Positions 3,506 through 33,259 of a stretch of DNA of 34,602 bases are shown here, piece by piece (position 1 is the first letter of the stretch; the number at the start of each line of letters is the position of its first letter). A model generated the notes under the pieces. That model made no database searches. It saw nothing but the letters and a program-made list of their open reading frames with translations, and had not been told where the DNA came from. A program made the translations under genes and the position numbers. The DNA is from a virus, in the IMG/VR virus record IMGVR_UViG_3300042448_000067, positions 1 to 34,602 of that record, one strand, 5' to 3'.

Positions 3506-4504
3506 ATGGCTATCCAAGTCACTCATGCCACACAAGCAACTGGCACTGATGCCGGAAACGGAGAAATCCGTAAGGCTCAGTGGAATGAGGCACACACCAT
3601 TACTGGTGTAGCTGCTAATGCCGATATCCAAGAGTTCACCTCTACTGGCACATCCACATGGACTAAGCCAGCGGGTGCAAAAATAGTTTATGTGCTGATG
3701 CAAGGCGCTGGCGGTGGGGCTGGCTCGGGCCACAAACAGCTTGCAATTCCGTTAAACCCAAACCAGGGCGGTATGGGTGGTGGTGCTGGCGGGTGGGCAG
3801 AATTGTGGATTCCGGCTGTATCTCTTGGTTCAACGGAAACCGTAACGATTGGCGCTGGTGGTACTGGTGGCGCTTCACAAACAACATCGGGCAACGGCAA
3901 CAACGGTGTTATTGGGGGCAATAGCAGTTTTGGCTCTTGGGGCGTTGCCCGTGGTGGGTCAGCAGGGACTGGCGGTTCAACAGCAACACAAGGTTCTGGA
4001 TCAACAGGATCTACCTCTGCAAATGCCCCTGCTATTTTTTCTAATCAAGCAAGTACAACAAGTAACTCAAATTTTTATATTGCAAACGGAGGCTCTAGAA
4101 GCGCTGGTATTTCTGGTGGTTTCGGAGGTAGAGGAGGTAAAAGCGCCGGAGGTGGTGGTGGTGGTGGGGGCATAACCATAACTCCAGCAGCCACCAGCGG
4201 TGGAACAGGCGGGAAGGGCGGTTCCGGTGTTATTGAAACCCTCACATCAAACACTGGTGGTGGCGGCAGTGCTGGCACTAGCGGGGGCTCTGGTGGCAAT
4301 GGCGCAAACTCTAATAATTACTATCTTGGTGGTGATGGTGGCGGTGGAGGGGGGGCATCAATAACAGCAAACGGCGGCAATGGAGGCAATGGCGGTTATC
4401 CCGGTGGAGGTGGTGGTGCTGGCGGCGCTTGCTTGTCTGGTTTTAACTCCGGCGCTGGCGGCAACGGCGGCGATGGCTACGTCCGAGTCGTGACTTTTTT
4501 CTGA
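3506..4504 (+). CDS. Glycine-rich tail fibre or adhesin
   Basis: The 332-residue protein has a short N-terminal attachment-like part (residues 1-45). A strand motif then appears (FTSTGTSTWTKPAGAKIVYV) that marks the phage glycine-rich domain. From about residue 65 to the end, Gly makes up roughly a third or more of residues, in GGxGG and GxGG runs broken by Ser/Asn-rich loops. Such polyglycine segments form a polyglycine-II helix bundle in the T-even Gp38 adhesin, with the loops as receptor-binding tips. By analogy this is a host-recognition protein. The DNA is locally G-rich and repetitive, which would favour slippage and variation. Confidence 0.75.
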   Translation: MAIQVTHATQATGTDAGNGEIRKAQWNEAHTITGVAANADIQEFTSTGTSTWTKPAGAKIVYVLMQGAGGGAGSGHKQLAIPLNPNQGGMGGGAGGWAELWIPAVSLGSTETVTIGAGGTGGASQTTSGNGNNGVIGGNSSFGSWGVARGGSAGTGGSTATQGSGSTGSTSANAPAIFSNQASTTSNSNFYIANGGSRSAGISGGFGGRGGKSAGGGGGGGGITITPAATSGGTGGKGGSGVIETLTSNTGGGGSAGTSGGSGGNGANSNNYYLGGDGGGGGGASITANGGNGGNGGYPGGGGGAGGACLSGFNSGAGGNGGDGYVRVVTFF

Positions 4505-5927: not shown

Positions 5928-7357
5928 CATTTGGCGAATGGATGCCTGACCAGCCTGGGATTTCCGGCGCTTTGAATGATGCCAAGAATGTGGTGTCACA
6001 AGCCATAGGTTACGGGCCATTGCCTACTGCTGCAATCTTCTCTGCTGCTGCTAGTGAAAACCTGACAACGCTTGTTGCTGGTAAGACTCCGGCTAATGCC
6101 ACAAAGTTGTTTGCTGCTGGCTCAACAAAGATCTTTGATGTGTCTGGTGTGGGTGTTTTGACTGATGTTTCAAAGTCTGGTGGGTACACTCCAAACGCCA
6201 GTGCTGATCGTTTCAGGTTCACTCAGTTTGGCAATGTAATCATTGGGACAAACAACAGCAACCCAATGCAAGCCTACACATTGGGGACTTCTACGGCATT
6301 TGCTGACCTCGCTGCTGGTGCGCCAGTTTGTAAGTTTTTGACTGTTGTTCGTGATTTTGTTGTCACTGCTTTCACGACTGAATCAACCACTGTTTACCCT
6401 TCACGGGTTCGCTGGTCTGGTATCAACGATGAAACAGCATGGGGATCTAGCCAAGTCACACAAGCAGACTTTCAAGACATTCCTGATGGTGGGCAAATTG
6501 TTGGGATTCGTGGTGGTGAGTTTGGCTTGGTGTTTATGGAAAGAGGTATTAGCCGGATGAGTTACATCGGCACTCCTTTCATTTTCCAGTTTGACAACAT
6601 CTCTCGGGGTAAGGGCTGCATTGCTGCTGGCTCCATTGCTCAGACGCAAGGGGTGACGTTCTTCTTGTCAGACGATGGCTTTTATCTGTGTGACGGGCAA
6701 CAGATTCAAGGTATTGGGTCTGAGAAGGTAGACCGCTGGTTCTTTGCTAATGCTGATGAAAGCGCATTTGACACAATGAGCGCGGCTGTTGACCCTGTTC
6801 GCAAGCTGATTATCTGGAACTTCAAAACAACATTTGCACAGCGTCAACTTATCATTTACAACTTCAAAACACAAAAATGGACTTATGGAGATGCTGGCGC
6901 AGATTTCATTTCTGATGCTTCAACGGCTGCAACAACGCTTGAAAATCTGGACTCTATTTCTACTAGCATTGACGCTCTGCCTGTAAGCCTGGACTCTATC
7001 CTTTACATGGGCGGCAAGTATTTCCTTGGTGGAACTCAGGGGGCTTACGTTGTGACATACAACGGCTCACCCGCTACTGGTCAACTGATTACAGGCGATT
7101 TAAACGCTGGTGGTCGCTCTGTGGTGACATTGGCTAGACCTCTTGTTGATAACGGCTCTGCGACCGTTTCAGTGGCTTCTAGGACGCTTTTAAACGAAGG
7201 ATTGTCGTTTAGCACGCCTGTTGCCGCTGACTCTGAAAACAGGGTATCACTGAGATCTAATGGAAACTTCCATCGGTTTAAGGTTGTGCCAACAGGAAGC
7301 AACTGGACAACTGCCGTGTCTTTAGACCTTGAGCTTTCTGGACAGGGTACGCGATGA
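5909..7357 (+). CDS. Tail hub/nozzle-like protein (P22 gp10-like, beta-propeller type)
   Basis: The protein has 482 residues. Repeated beta-strand blades run through the middle: NVIIGTNNSNPMQAY, VRDFVVTAFT, RVRWSGINDETAW, GGEFGLVFMERGISRM, GVTFFLSDDGFYL, KLIIWNFKT, QLIIYNFKTQKWTYGD. Two of these blocks (RWSGINDETAW and the DGFYLCDGQQI blade) are typical of the packaged-DNA stabilisation/tail hub family of podoviruses. The protein would plug the portal-adaptor channel and connect it to the tail tip. Its ATG lies inside the previous reading frame, and the stop overlaps the next ATG (ATGA at 7354). The family call is from pattern and gene order, not a search. Confidence 0.75.
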   Translation: MATTKLTFGEWMPDQPGISGALNDAKNVVSQAIGYGPLPTAAIFSAAASENLTTLVAGKTPANATKLFAAGSTKIFDVSGVGVLTDVSKSGGYTPNASADRFRFTQFGNVIIGTNNSNPMQAYTLGTSTAFADLAAGAPVCKFLTVVRDFVVTAFTTESTTVYPSRVRWSGINDETAWGSSQVTQADFQDIPDGGQIVGIRGGEFGLVFMERGISRMSYIGTPFIFQFDNISRGKGCIAAGSIAQTQGVTFFLSDDGFYLCDGQQIQGIGSEKVDRWFFANADESAFDTMSAAVDPVRKLIIWNFKTTFAQRQLIIYNFKTQKWTYGDAGADFISDASTAATTLENLDSISTSIDALPVSLDSILYMGGKYFLGGTQGAYVVTYNGSPATGQLITGDLNAGGRSVVTLARPLVDNGSATVSVASRTLLNEGLSFSTPVAADSENRVSLRSNGNFHRFKVVPTGSNWTTAVSLDLELSGQGTR

Positions 7358-8157
7358 CAGTCCAATTCCGCACACTTCCTCAGTTTGGTGGAGACCCTCG
7401 GGCTGTTGCTGAAATTGTCAACGGCATCATGAATGGCAAGACCAATAACACTGGTGTTGTCACTCTTGCGACAGGGGATGCAACTAGCACAACCATTTAC
7501 GACAGCAGGATTAGTGGGGACAGCAAGATTATTGTTATCCCTTACAGCGCGGCTGCGTTTACTGATTCAACGCCTTACGGTGCTTTTCAGGACTCCACTG
7601 ACCAGACTGCCGCATCTACGACTGTTGCCTATCCTGTAACTTTCAACACAGTTGACTTTGCTCACGGGATTTCTGTTGCAAGCAACTCAAGGATTACGGT
7701 TAAAAGCTACGGCATTTATAACGTGCAATTTAGTTTGCAGTTTGTAAACACTGACTCCCAAATTCATGACGTTGACATTTGGTTTAGAAAGAATGGCACA
7801 AACATAGCCAACTCAAACAGTCGTTTTTCTATTCCAAACAAACACGGTAGTGTTGATGGGCATTTGATTGCTGCTTTGAACTTCTGGGTCGAGTTGGCTG
7901 CTAATGATTACGTTGAAATCATGTGGAGTACGACCAGTACGGCGGTTTCAATTGAGCAGCTTCCAACGCAGACAAGCCCAACAAGGCCAGCAACGCCCTC
8001 TGCGATTGTCACTGTGAACTTTGCCTCATCAAACGGCACAAGTGCGGCTGGTGACTATTCTGTGTATGTCAGCGCCCAAGCAAAGGGGTCTGCAACATTG
8101 ACGCATTTCGCAAATTCAACAGCTAACAAGACATACGCCTATGTTGTTATTGGCTAA
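7354..8157 (+). CDS. Virion protein with C1q/TNF-like jelly-roll domain
   Basis: The protein has 267 residues. The N-terminus (about 1-40) probably attaches to the particle. A low-complexity beta-prone segment lies at about 45-95. Then comes a C1q-like core (about 110-205) with the hallmark strands GIYNVQFSLQFVN, DVDIWFRKNGTNIANS, LNFWVELAANDYVEIMWS. A C-terminal beta region ends HFANSTANKTYAYVVIG. C1q-like trimers are used as receptor-binding heads or decorations in many phages. The gene is coupled to the tail hub gene by an ATGA overlap and is followed by a promoter-like region. Its exact location in the particle is unknown. Confidence 0.7.
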   Translation: MTVQFRTLPQFGGDPRAVAEIVNGIMNGKTNNTGVVTLATGDATSTTIYDSRISGDSKIIVIPYSAAAFTDSTPYGAFQDSTDQTAASTTVAYPVTFNTVDFAHGISVASNSRITVKSYGIYNVQFSLQFVNTDSQIHDVDIWFRKNGTNIANSNSRFSIPNKHGSVDGHLIAALNFWVELAANDYVEIMWSTTSTAVSIEQLPTQTSPTRPATPSAIVTVNFASSNGTSAAGDYSVYVSAQAKGSATLTHFANSTANKTYAYVVIG

Positions 8158-20721: not shown

Positions 20722-21471
20722 ATGCTTTTACAGCCAAAGAATTGGGGCGTCTTTCAACATTACAAAGACCGCTGCCCACCGTGGATAAAACTCCATCGTG
20801 ACTTACTAAATGACCGTGTGTTTATGTGCTTGCCACTTGCTAGCAAGGCGCTTGCACCTTTGCTCTGGTTGCTAGCATCAGAGTCAAAAGACGGCACTTT
20901 TGATGGCTCACTGGATGAGCTTGTGTTTCGATTGCACATCACGCCAAAAGACTATCAAGATGGTGTTAAGCCGTTGATTGATAAAGGTTTTTTTGTTGTT
21001 GCTAGTGGAGTGCTAGCAGAGTGCTATCAAGATGCTATCCCAGAGACAGAGAGAGAGGGAGAGACAGAGAGAGAGACAAAGACAGAAAAGAGGCAGATAA
21101 GCAATCGCGGTTCGCGCTTGCCAGTGGACTTTCTTTTGGATGAAGAATGGATTTCTTTTTGTAAACAAGAACGTCCTGATTTGAATCCACAAAAGGTTTT
21201 TGCTGAATTCTTGGATTACTGGACAGCACAACCAGGGCAAAAGGGTGTGAAATTAGCTTGGACACCAACATGGCGAAATTGGGTACGCCGACAGTCAGCA
21301 CCAAAACAATCCTTTGCCCAACAAGCCGCTGACATTGCCAGAACAACAGTCCCTGCCCAACACTCTGGCCCTGACCCTGTGCTGCTCAAGATTGAGGCTG
21401 ACAGACAGAAAGCTGCTCCTATGCCTGACCACATTCGCCAGCAGATCAATCAAGTCTTGAGGAAGGTATGA
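20722..21471 (+). CDS. Replication initiator/DnaD-O-like protein candidate
   Basis: The protein has 249 residues. The N-terminal 110 residues resemble the wing-helix start of phage replication proteins (KNWGVFQHYKDRCPPWIKLH, then RDLLNDRVFMCLPLASKALA, then LDELVFRLHITPKDYQDGV). A Glu/Arg/Thr-rich linker (about 110-128) separates a C-terminal domain with RLPVDFLLDEEWISFCKQER and FLDYWTAQPGQKGVKLAWTP, TWRNWVRRQ. In related phages this protein loads the host helicase. There is no polymerase or helicase gene here, so host-dependent initiation is expected. The stop overlaps the Mom-like start. Confidence 0.72.
   Translation: MLLQPKNWGVFQHYKDRCPPWIKLHRDLLNDRVFMCLPLASKALAPLLWLLASESKDGTFDGSLDELVFRLHITPKDYQDGVKPLIDKGFFVVASGVLAECYQDAIPETEREGETERETKTEKRQISNRGSRLPVDFLLDEEWISFCKQERPDLNPQKVFAEFLDYWTAQPGQKGVKLAWTPTWRNWVRRQSAPKQSFAQQAADIARTTVPAQHSGPDPVLLKIEADRQKAAPMPDHIRQQINQVLRKV
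21041..21093 (+). repeat. GA-rich low-complexity tract coding the replication protein linker
   Basis: It is nearly all A/G with repeated GAGAGA and GACAGA units, about 53 bases. It encodes ETEREGETERETKTEKR. Its repeat number could change by slippage without harming the domains on either side. Confidence 0.85.
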
Positions 21472-22133
21472 AAGTTCTTCCAATTCAAAGCTATGAAGCA
21501 GAGCCTTGGCTTCTTAAAAAACACTATGCAAAGCGTATGCCATCAATTAGCTATGCTTTTGGATTGTTTGATGATGGAAGGCTGGTGGGAGTTTGCACCT
21601 ATGGAACACCTTCAGCCGCACCATTGCGGGACGGTATAGCTGGCCCAGAAAACGCCAAATATGTGCTGGAATTAAACCGCTTATGTTTGGACACAAAGAC
21701 CAAAAATGCAGCATCTATGTTGGTCGGAAGAAGTCTTCAAATGCTGCCTAAACCATCTATTGTGGTGAGCTATGCCGATACAGAACAAGAACACGTTGGT
21801 TACGTCTATCAGGCTTGCAACTTCATTTATACGGGTTTAAGCGCCAAGCGTACCGATTGGAAGATTAAAGGCATGGAGCATCTACACGGTCAAACCATTG
21901 CCGATATCAGCCGTGGCTGCGATGGGTCAAGATCTAAATTCATGCGGGAAAAGTTTGGAGATGATTTTTATTTGCAAGACAGAGCAAGAAAGCATCGTTA
22001 TATTTTTGTAACTGGAAAAAACAAAACATTAAAAAACCAGATTCGTTACGCTGTTGAGCCATATCCAAAAGGCGAAAGCAAGCGATATGACGCTGGAGCT
22101 GAGGTTCAAACACAAGCGTTATTGTTTTTTTGA
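21468..22133 (+). CDS. Mom-like DNA modification protein (GNAT fold)
   Basis: The protein has 221 residues, close to the length of phage Mu Mom. Sequence blocks fit the Mom-like GNAT family: WLLKKHYAKRMPSISYAFGL, LVGVCTYGTPSAAPLR, VLELNRLC (68-73), NAASMLVGRSLQMLPKPSIV, VVSYADTEQEHVGYVYQACN (100-118). Mom adds a carbamoylmethyl group to adenine N6 in phage Mu DNA and blocks many restriction enzymes. The stretch ELNRLC with the later SYAD is a good marker. The gene begins inside the end of the replication gene (ATGA). No com-like activator is recognised. Confidence 0.8.
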   Translation: MKVLPIQSYEAEPWLLKKHYAKRMPSISYAFGLFDDGRLVGVCTYGTPSAAPLRDGIAGPENAKYVLELNRLCLDTKTKNAASMLVGRSLQMLPKPSIVVSYADTEQEHVGYVYQACNFIYTGLSAKRTDWKIKGMEHLHGQTIADISRGCDGSRSKFMREKFGDDFYLQDRARKHRYIFVTGKNKTLKNQIRYAVEPYPKGESKRYDAGAEVQTQALLFF

Positions 22134-22259: not shown

Positions 22260-22472
22260 ATGGCATACAACCAGAAACCACAATCTAATCACAGTGACAG
22301 ATACATGATTGAACTTGGTGAAGCCAGAGTTCTTTTTAGGACTTGGGAGTCAACAAAGCAAAAGGTCTTAACGCCTGTTCGCATTGAGTGGCTAGAGCGC
22401 CGATATGGATCAGGTTCTGTTGAAAGGATTCGTGAGTTTATGAAGAAATTACAAAGTGGTGAACTTGAATGA
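22260..22472 (+). CDS. Small basic protein, function unknown
   Basis: The protein has 70 residues. The second half, VRIEWLERRYGSGSVERIRE then FMKKLQSGELE, is a helical pattern common in small phage early proteins and may bind nucleic acid. The start lies 6 bases after the previous stop. Its stop overlaps the next ATG (ATGA). No catalytic motif is visible. Confidence 0.65.
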   Translation: MAYNQKPQSNHSDRYMIELGEARVLFRTWESTKQKVLTPVRIEWLERRYGSGSVERIREFMKKLQSGELE

Positions 22473-22732
22473 GATACGCAGCAAGGGTTGATGCTAACCA
22501 GCAAGAGATTGTCAAAGCATTGCGTGAGGCTGGTGCTTACGTCTGGATCATTGGCCTACCTGTTGACCTGCTTGTCGGGTTTGGTGGTCAAACATACTTG
22601 GTGGAAGTCAAGGATGGGTCTAAAAAGGCTTTAACGCGCCTACAACAAGACTTTTTTGGAAATTGGATAGGTGGTGGCTTGCACCGCATTGAAAGCCCTG
22701 AAGACGCTTTACGCATGATTGGCAAAGCATGA
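22469..22732 (+). CDS. PD-(D/E)XK-type nuclease or VRR-NUC-like protein
   Basis: The protein has 87 residues. The active-site pattern is visible: Glu13, then VDLLVGFGGQTYLVEVKDG with Asp33 and Glu46-x-Lys48. RLQQDFFGNW supplies the usual downstream helix and LHRIESPEDALRMI the end. This is the VRR-NUC/endonuclease VII-like minimal fold used by Holliday-junction resolvases and structure-specific nucleases. Next to NinB and YbcO it probably takes part in recombination or replication-intermediate processing. It is coupled by ATGA on both sides to its neighbours. Confidence 0.78.
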   Translation: MRYAARVDANQQEIVKALREAGAYVWIIGLPVDLLVGFGGQTYLVEVKDGSKKALTRLQQDFFGNWIGGGLHRIESPEDALRMIGKA

Positions 22733-23460
22733 TTCACTATCACGGTATGCCTATCACGCCAGCAACTGCTGCTGTCTCTGCTGTGCAAGCTGGTCATGGC
22801 TTTGTTTCTTTTCAGCATCCAGACCAATTAGGTGTTGCTGCTGAAGTCTGTCAATCCTTTGCTGTTGATAACGGTGCTTTTAGTGCATGGAAAAGTGGCA
22901 ACCCAAGAACAAACTGGACAGAGTTTTATGAGTGGGCGCTAATGTGCAAGAAGATGCCAAACTGCGACTTTGCTGTTATTCCTGATGTGATTGATGGATC
23001 TGAAGACGATAACAACGCTCTTGTTCGTGCTTGGCCTTTGGGTAACTTCTTTGGCGCACCTGTTTGGCATATGCACGAATCAATCACTCGATTAACATGG
23101 CTGGCTCGGACTTTCCACCGTGTTTGCATTGGCTCATCTGGTCAATTTGCAGAAATTGGAAATTCTTTATGGTGGGGACGAATGGCAGAAGCAATGAACG
23201 CTGTTTGCCCTGATGGGTATCCAGTTTGTAAGTTGCATGGCTTGCGTATGCTTGACCCTGAAGTGTTTACAAAGTTGCCGTTTGCGTCAGCTGACAGCAC
23301 AAACATTGGTCGAAACATAGGAATTGATAACAACTGGAAGAACGGAAATTACCCACCACCAACAAAAGAAGCAAGAGCAATGGTTATGAGACAAAGGATT
23401 GAATCTCACAACGCTGCTCAAAAATGGATTACGCAACCAATTCAGGAAACATTGATATGA
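22729..23460 (+). CDS. dpdA: DpdA-like (TGT-superfamily) DNA 7-deazaguanine transglycosylase
   Basis: The protein has 243 residues, with motifs of the phage DpdA group: AVDNGAFSAW with DNGAF at 47-51, FAVIPDVIDG with two Asp at 86 and 89, VWHMHESITRL, VCIGSSG (132-138), KLHGLR (168-173), FASADSTNIGRN (185-196). DpdA exchanges guanine in DNA for preQ0 or a relative, using the Asp-based mechanism of tRNA-guanine transglycosylase. It is shorter than TGT and than many phage DpdA proteins, so it may be a compact subtype. The transporter gene follows, overlapping by ATGA. The family call is from recognised motifs, and the substrate is inferred. Confidence 0.8.
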   Translation: MIHYHGMPITPATAAVSAVQAGHGFVSFQHPDQLGVAAEVCQSFAVDNGAFSAWKSGNPRTNWTEFYEWALMCKKMPNCDFAVIPDVIDGSEDDNNALVRAWPLGNFFGAPVWHMHESITRLTWLARTFHRVCIGSSGQFAEIGNSLWWGRMAEAMNAVCPDGYPVCKLHGLRMLDPEVFTKLPFASADSTNIGRNIGIDNNWKNGNYPPPTKEARAMVMRQRIESHNAAQKWITQPIQETLI

Positions 23461-23942
23461 AAATTGCAATCGGTGTTTACGCACTAGCAATGACTGCCGC
23501 AAACTTGTCTATTTCACATTTTGGCCCTTGGGTGTCGCCAATAAACTCATTTTTGTTTATTGGTCTTGACTTGGCTTTGCGTGACTTGTTGCACCAAAAG
23601 TTAAAAGCATGGCAGATGGGCTGTTTAATTGTTGGCACTGGTTTGCTGACATATTTGTTAAACCCTGCTGCTGGAATGATTGCAATTGCGTCTGCTGTGT
23701 CATTTACTGCTGCATCTGTGGTTGATTGGGCTGTGTTTGCAAAACTTACTGGATCATGGATTAAACGAGCCAATGGAAGCAACATTGCTGGTGCTGCTGT
23801 GGACAGTGTTGTGTTTCCAACATTGGCGTTTGGTGTTTTGATTCCTCAAATTGTTGCAATGCAATTTGTAGCAAAAGTTGCCGGTGGTGCTTTTTGGGCT
23901 TATGCAATTACAAAGGTAAAAAGTGAAAGTCACTCTGTATAA
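23457..23942 (+). CDS. VUT/YhhQ-family queuosine-precursor transporter
   Basis: The protein has 161 residues from ATG 23457. The in-frame 23424 start is inside the previous gene and has no support. It has 5-6 hydrophobic helices: YALAMTAANLSISHF, NSFLFIGLDLALRDLLH, QMGCLIVGTGLLTYLL, AGMIAIASAVSFTAASVVDW, AAVDSVVFPTLAFGVLI, VAGGAFWAYAIT. The NSFLFIGLDLALRD and DSVVFPTLAFG segments are typical of the VUT family, which imports preQ0/preQ1 in bacteria. It is shorter than E. coli YhhQ. The overlap with the DpdA-like gene and the lack of synthesis genes suggest it feeds that enzyme. Confidence 0.82.
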   Translation: MKIAIGVYALAMTAANLSISHFGPWVSPINSFLFIGLDLALRDLLHQKLKAWQMGCLIVGTGLLTYLLNPAAGMIAIASAVSFTAASVVDWAVFAKLTGSWIKRANGSNIAGAAVDSVVFPTLAFGVLIPQIVAMQFVAKVAGGAFWAYAITKVKSESHSV

Positions 23943-24345
23943 CGCACAACAAGCGCACACTGTCCTGAAGGATGTTTGGCAAAAGGCCAAGCCTTACTTG
24001 CAGGCTGGTAACAAGCTGGTGCTGACGATTGAACAGGAAAAGCGCAGCCAAGAGCAAAACGCCTTGATGTGGTCTGTGCTGACTGATTTGTCTAAATCAT
24101 TGGATTGGCATGGCGAGAAGCTGACAAAAGAAGAATACAAAGACTTGTTAACTGCTGGCCTAAAAAAGCAAAGAGCTATTCCAGGCATTGATGGTGGCTT
24201 TGTTGTTTTGGGTTCGTCAACCAGCAAGATGACAAAGCAAGAGATGACAGACCTGATAACAATGGCTCATGCCTTTGGTGATGAGCGTGAGGTTAAGTGG
24301 TCGCCTACAAGTATTGGGGAATCAAATGATGTTTCCAAAGCATAA
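23923..24345 (+). CDS. ninB: NinB-like recombination protein
   Basis: The protein has 140 residues, starting at GTG 23923 inside the end of the transporter gene. It has the NinB/Orf family pattern: KLVLTIEQEKRSQEQNALMW, then SVLTDLSKSLDWHGEKLTKE, EYKDLLTAG, and C-terminal DLITMAHAFGDEREVKW. NinB binds single-stranded DNA and helps load recombination proteins in lambda-like phages. With Erf, the SSB-like protein and the YbcO-type nuclease it forms a recombination set. Its last 20 bases overlap the YbcO-like gene. Confidence 0.87.
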   Translation: MKVTLYNAQQAHTVLKDVWQKAKPYLQAGNKLVLTIEQEKRSQEQNALMWSVLTDLSKSLDWHGEKLTKEEYKDLLTAGLKKQRAIPGIDGGFVVLGSSTSKMTKQEMTDLITMAHAFGDEREVKWSPTSIGESNDVSKA

Positions 24346-30880: not shown

Positions 30881-32987
30881 AATCGACAACTCAATCGGTT
30901 TCATTGAGAGTGAGACTGTTGAGCAACGCAAGCAAGCCCTGCAAGCCTACTTGCGCCAACCTTACGGCAACGAGGTCGAAGGTAAGTCTTCTATTGTCAC
31001 TGGTGAGGTAGCAGAAGCCATTGATGGTGCAATGCCTCCACTGATGCGTATCTTTGCCAGCAGCGATCAAGTTGTATTGGCAAACCCAACTGGCCCCGGT
31101 GATGAGGCTGGCGCTAAACAGGTCACAGACTACCTCAACTACATCTTCCTGAATGACAATCCCGGCGTGATCATCATGCACGATTGGTTTAAGGATGCCT
31201 TGCTGCAAAAGAACGGCATTGTTAAAGCGTATTGGGAAGACAAGGAAGACGTTACCAAAGAGAGCTATCAGGGCTTGTCTGATGACGAACTAGCCTTGAT
31301 GCTGCAAGACAAAGACCTTGAGATTGTTGAGCAAGATACCCAAGAGTTCCCTATCCTTGACCCTATGGGTATGCCTGCCTTCAATGAAGACGGTACACAA
31401 GCCATGTATGGCGTCCATGACATTAAGGTGAGCAAGCGCACCAAGTCGGGCAAGGTTGTTGTTGAGAACGTCCCACCAGAGGAGTTCCTGATCTCCAAGC
31501 GTGGCATCAAGATTGAAACATCGCCTTTCATTGCACACCGCCGGATGATTACCCGCAGCGACTTGATTGCTATGGGTTTTGATGAGGAAGTGGTTAAGGG
31601 ATTGGCTACTGGTGACGCACTTGCCTACACACCAGAGCGAGTGGCTCGATTCAGTCCTGGTGAGCAACCTTATGACACACAGGCAGAAGACTTTGCAATG
31701 CAAGAGATTGAGGTCTTTGAGTGCTATGTGCGTGTTGATGAGGACGAAGACGGTATTGCCGAGTTGCGCCAAGTCTTCTATGCAAGCAATGAGATTCTGA
31801 GCAACGAAGAAGCTGACTATGTTCCCTTCTACTCTGTTTGCCCGATTCCAATTCCGCACAAGTTCTTTGGTAACTCACTGGCAGACCGCACAATTGATCT
31901 GCAACTGATCAAAACCACTGTTACCCGTCAGATGCTGGATAACTTGTATCTGACCAACAACGCCCGTGTGGTGGCTGTTGAGGGGCAAGTTAACTTTGAT
32001 GACCTGCTTACCTCTACCGCTGGTGGCGTTATTCGGGCTAAGACACAAGGCGCTGTTCAGCAATTGGTTGTTCAGAACGTGGCTCAACAATCGTTCCCAA
32101 TGCTGGAGTACTTGGATCGAGTTCAGTCCAAGCGTACAGGCGTGACTGATGCAAGCCAAGGTCTTGATGCCTCTATCTTGCAGAACGTGACAGCCGCAGC
32201 CGTGGCATCCATGCAGCAAGCCGGAGCCGGAAAGATTGAGATGATTGCCCGTATCTTTGCCGATACTGGTGTTCGTGATCTGTTCTATGGCATCTTGCAC
32301 TTGGTCACTAAGTACCAGCAGAAAGAGCGAATCATTCGTTTGCGTGGCACTTACGTGGCTATTGACCCTCGCACTTGGGCCAACAAGTATGACCTGACAG
32401 TGAATGTCGGTCTGGGTAACGGTAATCGTGATCAGCAAATGGCAATGCTGCAAATGGTGCTGGCAAAGCAAGAGCAAATGCTGGCTCAGTTTGGCCCTGC
32501 TAACCCGTTTGTTTCGTTCGGTCAATATCGTGCTTCTCTTGGCCGTATGGTTGAGGCTGCTGGTTTCAAAGACTCTGCTGAGTTCTTTAAGCCGATTAGC
32601 CCAGAGCAAGACCAGCAATTGTCTAACCCACCTCCACAAGAGCCGCAAATGTCTCCAGAGGTTCAGGCGTACATGGCTAAGACACAGGCTGAGATCCAAG
32701 GCCAACAGGCTAAGTTCCAAGCTGATATGCAAATGCAACAAGCCAAGATGCAAGCGGATCTTGAGTTTGAACGCCAGAAGGCTGCACTTGAATTGCAACT
32801 CCAGCGAGACAAAGCCGCTGCTGAGATTCAACTGATGCGCGAGAAAGAAGCCTCAAAACTTCAGATTGAGCGTGAGAAGATGAATATGCACTTTGCCATG
32901 AAGGAGCAAGAGTTCCAAGCCGAGGCACAGCTTAAAGCCATGAAGATTGGTGCAGGCATCACTTCCAACGTGGAGATCCCAGGATGA
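30846..32987 (+). CDS. Portal protein (P22-like)
   Basis: The protein has 713 residues, close to the P22 gp1 length of 725. The start (QAEIDNSIGFIESETVEQRK, then YGNEVEGKSSIVTGEVAEAI) and the middle blocks (VENVPPEEFLISKRGIKIE, FYSVCPIPIPHKFFGNSLAD, then LIKTTVTRQMLDNLYLTNN) are typical of this family. A very long Gln/Lys/Glu/Ala-rich helix from about 590 to 700 would form the central barrel that enters the capsid. Twelve copies make the DNA channel and the packaging port. Position after terminase agrees. The stop overlaps the next start by ATGA. Confidence 0.92.
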   Translation: MSQNLKAILQAEIDNSIGFIESETVEQRKQALQAYLRQPYGNEVEGKSSIVTGEVAEAIDGAMPPLMRIFASSDQVVLANPTGPGDEAGAKQVTDYLNYIFLNDNPGVIIMHDWFKDALLQKNGIVKAYWEDKEDVTKESYQGLSDDELALMLQDKDLEIVEQDTQEFPILDPMGMPAFNEDGTQAMYGVHDIKVSKRTKSGKVVVENVPPEEFLISKRGIKIETSPFIAHRRMITRSDLIAMGFDEEVVKGLATGDALAYTPERVARFSPGEQPYDTQAEDFAMQEIEVFECYVRVDEDEDGIAELRQVFYASNEILSNEEADYVPFYSVCPIPIPHKFFGNSLADRTIDLQLIKTTVTRQMLDNLYLTNNARVVAVEGQVNFDDLLTSTAGGVIRAKTQGAVQQLVVQNVAQQSFPMLEYLDRVQSKRTGVTDASQGLDASILQNVTAAAVASMQQAGAGKIEMIARIFADTGVRDLFYGILHLVTKYQQKERIIRLRGTYVAIDPRTWANKYDLTVNVGLGNGNRDQQMAMLQMVLAKQEQMLAQFGPANPFVSFGQYRASLGRMVEAAGFKDSAEFFKPISPEQDQQLSNPPPQEPQMSPEVQAYMAKTQAEIQGQQAKFQADMQMQQAKMQADLEFERQKAALELQLQRDKAAAEIQLMREKEASKLQIEREKMNMHFAMKEQEFQAEAQLKAMKIGAGITSNVEIPG

Positions 32988-33259
32988 ATGACCAAGTTGA
33001 AGAAACCAAGCAAATGGTCAGAGAGGCCATGCTTGAAGAAGGCATAACCTCTAAAACGCTAATGCGTCTTGGAAAGATGGCTGAAGACGTTTTGCAAGAT
33101 CAAACACTCTATCCAAAGTTTTTACAAGCAATCATTGATAGCGAATTAGCCGATGAAGAAGATCTATCTAAAAAAATAGATTACCAACTTATTGGCGTAA
33201 TGGCTACGCTTGGAGAGATGTCAAGGCAAATGATTGCTTCTGGTGAAATAGAGGCTTGA
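32984..33259 (+). CDS. Small helical protein after the portal gene, function unknown
   Basis: The protein has 91 residues. It is largely helical and acidic (NDQVEETKQMVREAMLEEGI, then MRLGKMAEDVLQDQTLYPKF, LADEEDLSKKID). It sits between the portal and an ejection-type gene, and its start overlaps the portal stop (ATGA). It could be a head-assembly or portal-associated factor. No motif decides this. Confidence 0.66.
   Translation: MNDQVEETKQMVREAMLEEGITSKTLMRLGKMAEDVLQDQTLYPKFLQAIIDSELADEEDLSKKIDYQLIGVMATLGEMSRQMIASGEIEA

Follow-up and report, generated by a model that had tools for sequence, protein, structure and literature searches.

A putative biosynthesis-free DpdA/VUT cassette for 7-deazaguanine modification of phage DNA

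We describe two overlapping phage genes, one for a DpdA-like transglycosylase and one for a small membrane protein of the VUT/YhhQ family, which we read with reasonable confidence as a cassette for 7-deazaguanine modification of DNA that dispenses with precursor biosynthesis and is fed by import. In the proposed mechanism, the DpdA-family enzyme would put a 7-deazaguanine in place of a subset of the guanines of the phage genome, with preQ0 as the most likely substrate and either dPreQ0 or dADG as the final base. The six-helix VUT protein would import precursors of the preQ0/preQ1 class, raising the supply of base beyond the pool made by the host, and the modified DNA would resist some of the host restriction enzymes.

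Layout and genomic context of the gene pair

The window, i.e. the whole stretch of 34,602 nucleotides that was analyzed, is a virus contig of 34.6 kb (IMG/VR record IMGVR_UViG_3300042448_000067). A segment of 193 bp is common to both of its ends at 98.4% identity, and circular relatives with terminase 86% and 84% identical measure 33.3 and 34.7 kb, respectively; the phage record is thus probably near complete, close to a whole genome. The gene pair and its immediate neighbors are arranged as follows:

22469..22732, + strand: VRR-NUC-like small nuclease, left neighbor (PHROG 93 endonuclease, E 5e-7)
22729..23460, + strand: DpdA-family (TGT-like) transglycosylase, 243 aa (PHROG 887, fold, conserved residues)
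23457..23460, + strand: ATGA stop/start overlap, DpdA TGA at 23458-23460 and VUT ATG at 23457 (sequence)
23457..23942, + strand: VUT/YhhQ-family (COG1738) membrane protein, 161 aa, putative importer of 7-deazaguanine precursors (Pfam PF02592, PHROG 4899)
23923..24345, + strand: NinB recombination protein, right neighbor (Pfam NinB, E 2.7e-38)

The original prediction had placed the two reading frames at 22729-23942, with five motifs of the enzyme and the ATGA overlap, and the sequence bears out all of these. The VRR-NUC-like gene overlaps the start of DpdA likewise by ATGA, within a run of overlapping genes that leads from VRR-NUC-like through DpdA and VUT to NinB. A start with the 4-base overlap is on offer in most of the related DpdA/VUT loci with overlapping frames, and translation of the two genes may be coupled. 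In two close relatives, ctnlZ23 and ct2t2046, the VRR-NUC gene directly adjoins NinB with neither DpdA nor VUT in between. At the VRR-NUC/NinB site, DpdA and VUT behave like a single cassette, gained or lost jointly.

Two small genes upstream of the pair, a Mom-like DNA adenine modification gene is present (21468-22133, + strand; Pfam PF25680, E 2.4e-40; PHROG 1384), and it is possible that this phage has two distinct hypermodifications of its bases, one Mom-like and one from DpdA/VUT. Mom homologues also occur near the pair in 11 IMG/VR loci, some of which are overlapping stretches of one contig. In ct2t2046, a gene for a cytosine-specific methyltransferase (32248-32988) lies just upstream of VRR-NUC. 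In the window this position is taken by the Mom-like gene, which suggests that it is an exchangeable DNA-modification slot.

The enzyme and the membrane protein

The 243-codon reading frame contains the motifs DNGAF (residues 47-51), PDVIDG (85-90), GSSG (135-138), LHGLR (169-173) and SADSTN (187-192). It had been predicted to encode a DpdA-like transglycosylase, and profile searches agree: the enzyme matches PHROG 887 ('queuine tRNA-ribosyltransferase') with E 2.3e-68 over residues 1-230, nearly its whole length, and the DpdA of Escherichia phage CAjan falls in the same family (E 8e-96). A profile of the window family, made from 28 proteins and with E-values set for one million sequences, finds the DpdA proteins of Pantoea phage MED16 (5e-63), Salmonella phage 7-11 (5e-47) and CAjan (7.5e-13), that of 7-11 being 31% identical to the window enzyme. 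Relatives in IMG/VR number 577 for DpdA and at least 579 for VUT. Over 72 diverse relatives of the enzyme, residues D47, A50, P85, D86, P111, H114, G135, H170 and R173 are invariant and D189 is kept in 97%; by alignment, D47, H114, H170 and D189 are common to CAjan DpdA as well. Judging from this conservation, the Asp and His residues D47, D86, H114, H170 and D189 are candidates for the active site.

The AlphaFold2 (AF2) model of the enzyme (pTM 0.82) has archaeosine TGT (1j2b) as its top PDB match (Foldseek probability 1.00, E 1.7e-3, TM 0.50), ahead of many other barrels. This gives moderate support, with a modest Foldseek E-value, to the TGT-like barrel that the original prediction had expected of a structure model. 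Direct sequence evidence for a relation to TGT is weak. No match to Pfam TGT (PF01702, cut-off 26.3 bits) is present in the window, and a scan of the enzyme against Pfam and NCBIfam returned nothing, including for the DpdA equivalog NF041059 (406 positions, cut-off 200 bits), on which CAjan DpdA scores only 16.9 bits. PDB sequence searches with either protein of the pair or its profile gave nothing useful, no solved structure being matched by sequence, and a profile-profile comparison of the window family with an alignment of bacterial TGT was not significant, though DNGAF aligned with the DSGGF of TGT. Because of this weakness, we keep the claim to a DpdA-like protein, and do not call it a TGT.

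The database name of the family, queuine tRNA-ribosyltransferase, and the tRNA enzyme found as best fold match could both point to a reduced phage TGT that acts on tRNA queuosine, of the host or the phage, and not on DNA. We regard this as very unlikely. The enzyme has no Pfam TGT match and is only 243 aa long, and its nearest studied homologues are phage DNA enzymes: deletion of CAjan dpdA leaves no dPreQ0 in the phage DNA (PMC6884629), and MED16 and 7-11 are known from their modified DNA. Moreover, TGT is already present in all 24 bacterial genomes holding related loci, and the cytosine-specific methyltransferase of ct2t2046, just upstream of the VRR-NUC gene, also argues against this alternative. 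We infer that the window enzyme exchanges guanine for a 7-deazaguanine in DNA.

The membrane protein (23457-23942) was originally assigned to the VUT family, in agreement with its score on Pfam Vut_1 (PF02592; 41.2 bits, cut-off 27.2) and with its AF2 model (pLDDT 89), which has six membrane-length helices. The best fold matches of this model are ECF S-components, with a probability of 0.99 but an E-value of 0.19. The protein also matches PHROG 4899 (E 1.1e-37), a family that includes the putative preQ0 transporter of CAjan; the PHROGs entry for the short phage VUT proteins reads unknown function. It scores under the YhhQ equivalog NF008406 (15.0 vs 252 bits) and TIGR00697 (16.7 vs 50.95 bits).

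Pairing of DpdA and VUT across phages

With VUT as bait in IMG/VR, we retrieved 91 distinct loci, which were taken best-first and so represent near relatives and not all phage VUT proteins. In 88 of these, a window-type DpdA lies within 250 bp of VUT on one strand. The three others are a VUT at a contig end, a Seuratvirus-like record with a full preQ0 cluster, and a locus (L144) in which the neighbor belongs to PHROG 1279. The latter neighbor, directly upstream of a window-type VUT, is queuine-transferase-like (7265-7993; 242 aa) and displays DSGAF, LHGFG and TADSM.

Adjacency of the pair holds in eight of the nine isolates inspected as well, so that the check on conservation proposed in the original prediction came out in favor of the pair. 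The Acinetobacter phage AB3P2 has the gene order of the window, and VUT comes first in PEAT2, Flyfo Tbat1_6, ECO111 5-P, Opt-719, LHE71, RCIP0319 and Phc; the automatic annotation of PEAT2 already places both genes adjacent. The exception is Escherichia phage mEp010, where VUT (3956-4468) lies beside DNA methyltransferases and no DpdA was found with the window family and two further families. This is a VUT homologue of the lambdoid mEp phages.

The two genes have also exchanged partners among loci. In seven loci, DpdA is only ~40% identical to that of the window but VUT is 62-76% identical, and in other loci DpdA reaches ~70% but VUT only ~51-57%. The VUT of L144, which adjoins a different queuine-transferase family, is a further case of such partner exchange.

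The linkage has a direction. With DpdA as bait, and loci again taken best-first, VUT was found in 39 of 67 distinct IMG/VR loci and was absent from 26 despite adequate flank; among related DpdA loci in bacterial genomes, five of 80 have VUT and 75 do not. These 26 and 75 loci indicate that the enzyme can do without the transporter. DpdA thus accompanies nearly every VUT, but VUT does not accompany every DpdA, a pattern to be expected if VUT is an accessory gene for precursor supply.

Another reading of these patterns is that DpdA uses host preQ0 while the cargo of VUT is another 7-deazaguanine (queuine or preQ1) or some other vitamin-like compound, the two being linked only as moron-type genes. 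The many DpdA relatives without VUT and the mEp010 VUT, beside methyltransferases and without DpdA, are consistent with it, as are the scores far under the YhhQ and TIGR00697 cut-offs and the transport of preQ1 known in the VUT family (PMC11130926). We consider it unlikely nevertheless, as a random association of morons would not yield DpdA beside 88 of 91 VUT loci, in both orders and with different DpdA families, and the CAjan homologue of VUT sits inside a preQ0 cluster.

Precursor supply and the modified base

The original prediction inferred reliance on imported or host precursors from a missing preQ0 pathway. That absence stands: family models for FolE, QueD and QueC, positive for CAjan in the same searches, find none of them in the window or in pair-bearing isolates, QueE, sought by BLAST/phmmer from the single CAjan sequence, was not found in the window, and the CAjan preQ0 proteins have only chance-level matches in the window. 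Hosts without preQ0 do not simply account for the transporter, QueC being mostly present. Besides TGT, 22 of the 24 bacterial genomes with related loci have QueC over the cut-off. A VUT-paired locus occurs in five of the 24 genomes; four of these are among the 22, and the other one is possibly an incomplete MAG. On these counts we reject, as a general rule, that VUT phages infect hosts lacking preQ0 synthesis. E. coli phages are among the carriers of the DpdA/VUT pair, and E. coli-type hosts make preQ0 and own YhhQ. Since hosts mostly have both TGT and QueC, the transporter probably supplements a small host pool and would not be the sole supply in place of a missing one.

Two hosts of related prophages, Variovorax guangxiensis and Achromobacter aestuarii, have in their genomes a second, weak match to TGT within ~2 kb of a QueC homologue. 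The arrangement resembles a Dpd island for DNA modification of the bacterial kind.

In CAjan, dPreQ0 reaches ~32% of G (PMC6884629). The modified base of 7-11 and MED16 is chiefly dADG, with 50 and 354 residues per million nucleotides, respectively; the singleton DpdA phages that have been measured are modified very sparsely, at no more than 0.13% of G, and phage Orion has no modification (PMC6884629, PMC8306585). With dADG predominant in these two relatives, the product first put forward, dPreQ0 or dPreQ1, is no longer clear. By analogy, the product in the window could be dPreQ0 or dADG, the latter being as likely as dPreQ0/dPreQ1.

The trace levels of dADG in 7-11 and MED16, its absence of noticeable effect in MED16 on the restriction enzymes tested (PMC8306585) and the unmodified DNA of Orion would also suit a genuine cassette with little or no activity in its natural host, leaving trace modification and serving another role, e.g. 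precursor competition. We hold this to be quite improbable: the active-site-like residues and the overlapping pair are strongly conserved, and 7-11 and MED16 are no test of the paired version because VUT was not found in 7-11 by profile and is not annotated near dpdA in MED16.

We therefore return to modification fed by import, for which the near-strict linkage of VUT to DpdA in numerous unrelated phages makes a prediction testable, namely that paired phages are modified more heavily than DpdA-only ones. Under this model, modification should also depend on external precursor. The linkage further suggests candidate substrates for the branch of short phage VUT proteins. A bolder version, which we put forward only tentatively and think rather doubtful, is that the pair is a newly recognized unit, a widespread mobile import-and-insert cassette in which the transporter feeds the enzyme and sustains substantial 7-deazaguanine modification in pathway-free phages, possibly with an environmental base other than preQ0.

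Comparison with known systems

Singleton DpdA, dependence on the host or on import, and transporters within full clusters are already published. Hutinet et al. (2019) proposed host preQ0 or uptake for the singleton DpdA group, found carriage of YhhQ uncorrelated with any group, and noted that whether singleton-DpdA phages modify their DNA is not predictable (PMC6884629); phage preQ0 transporters have been described within full clusters (PMC6884629; EC151, PMC8310023). For a tight mobile pair in biosynthesis-free phages, we found no description in the accessible literature, an earlier one being possible, and no publication naming a VUT-family protein together with queuine tRNA-ribosyltransferase in phages.

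The closest full system is the preQ0 cluster of CAjan and the Seuratvirus group, whose DpdA (gp35) and putative preQ0 transporter (gp41) belong to the same PHROGs, 887 and 4899, as the two window proteins. Unlike the window, CAjan also encodes FolE, QueD, QueC and QueE. Its DpdA has 306 aa against 243 aa, and ~2.3 kb with further genes separate its dpdA from its transporter gene, whereas the window has two genes only, which overlap.

The singleton DpdA phages 7-11 and MED16, the third group of Hutinet 2019, have a homologous compact enzyme without preQ0 biosynthesis genes, as in the window. The 7-11 DpdA is annotated with 234 aa in an open frame of 250 aa, and the MED16 homologue has 261 aa. 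The minimal system of compact enzyme plus transporter is real as a pair; a compact, biosynthesis-free DpdA was known before. What differs is the transporter: 7-11 has no VUT by profile and MED16 has none annotated near dpdA, whereas the window VUT overlaps the enzyme gene.

With the preQ0/preQ1 transporters E. coli YhhQ and COG1738 (QPTR), the window VUT has Pfam Vut_1 in common. It is shorter, with 161 aa vs ~221 aa for YhhQ, and lies far under the cut-offs of NF008406 and TIGR00697, but the core is likely the same.
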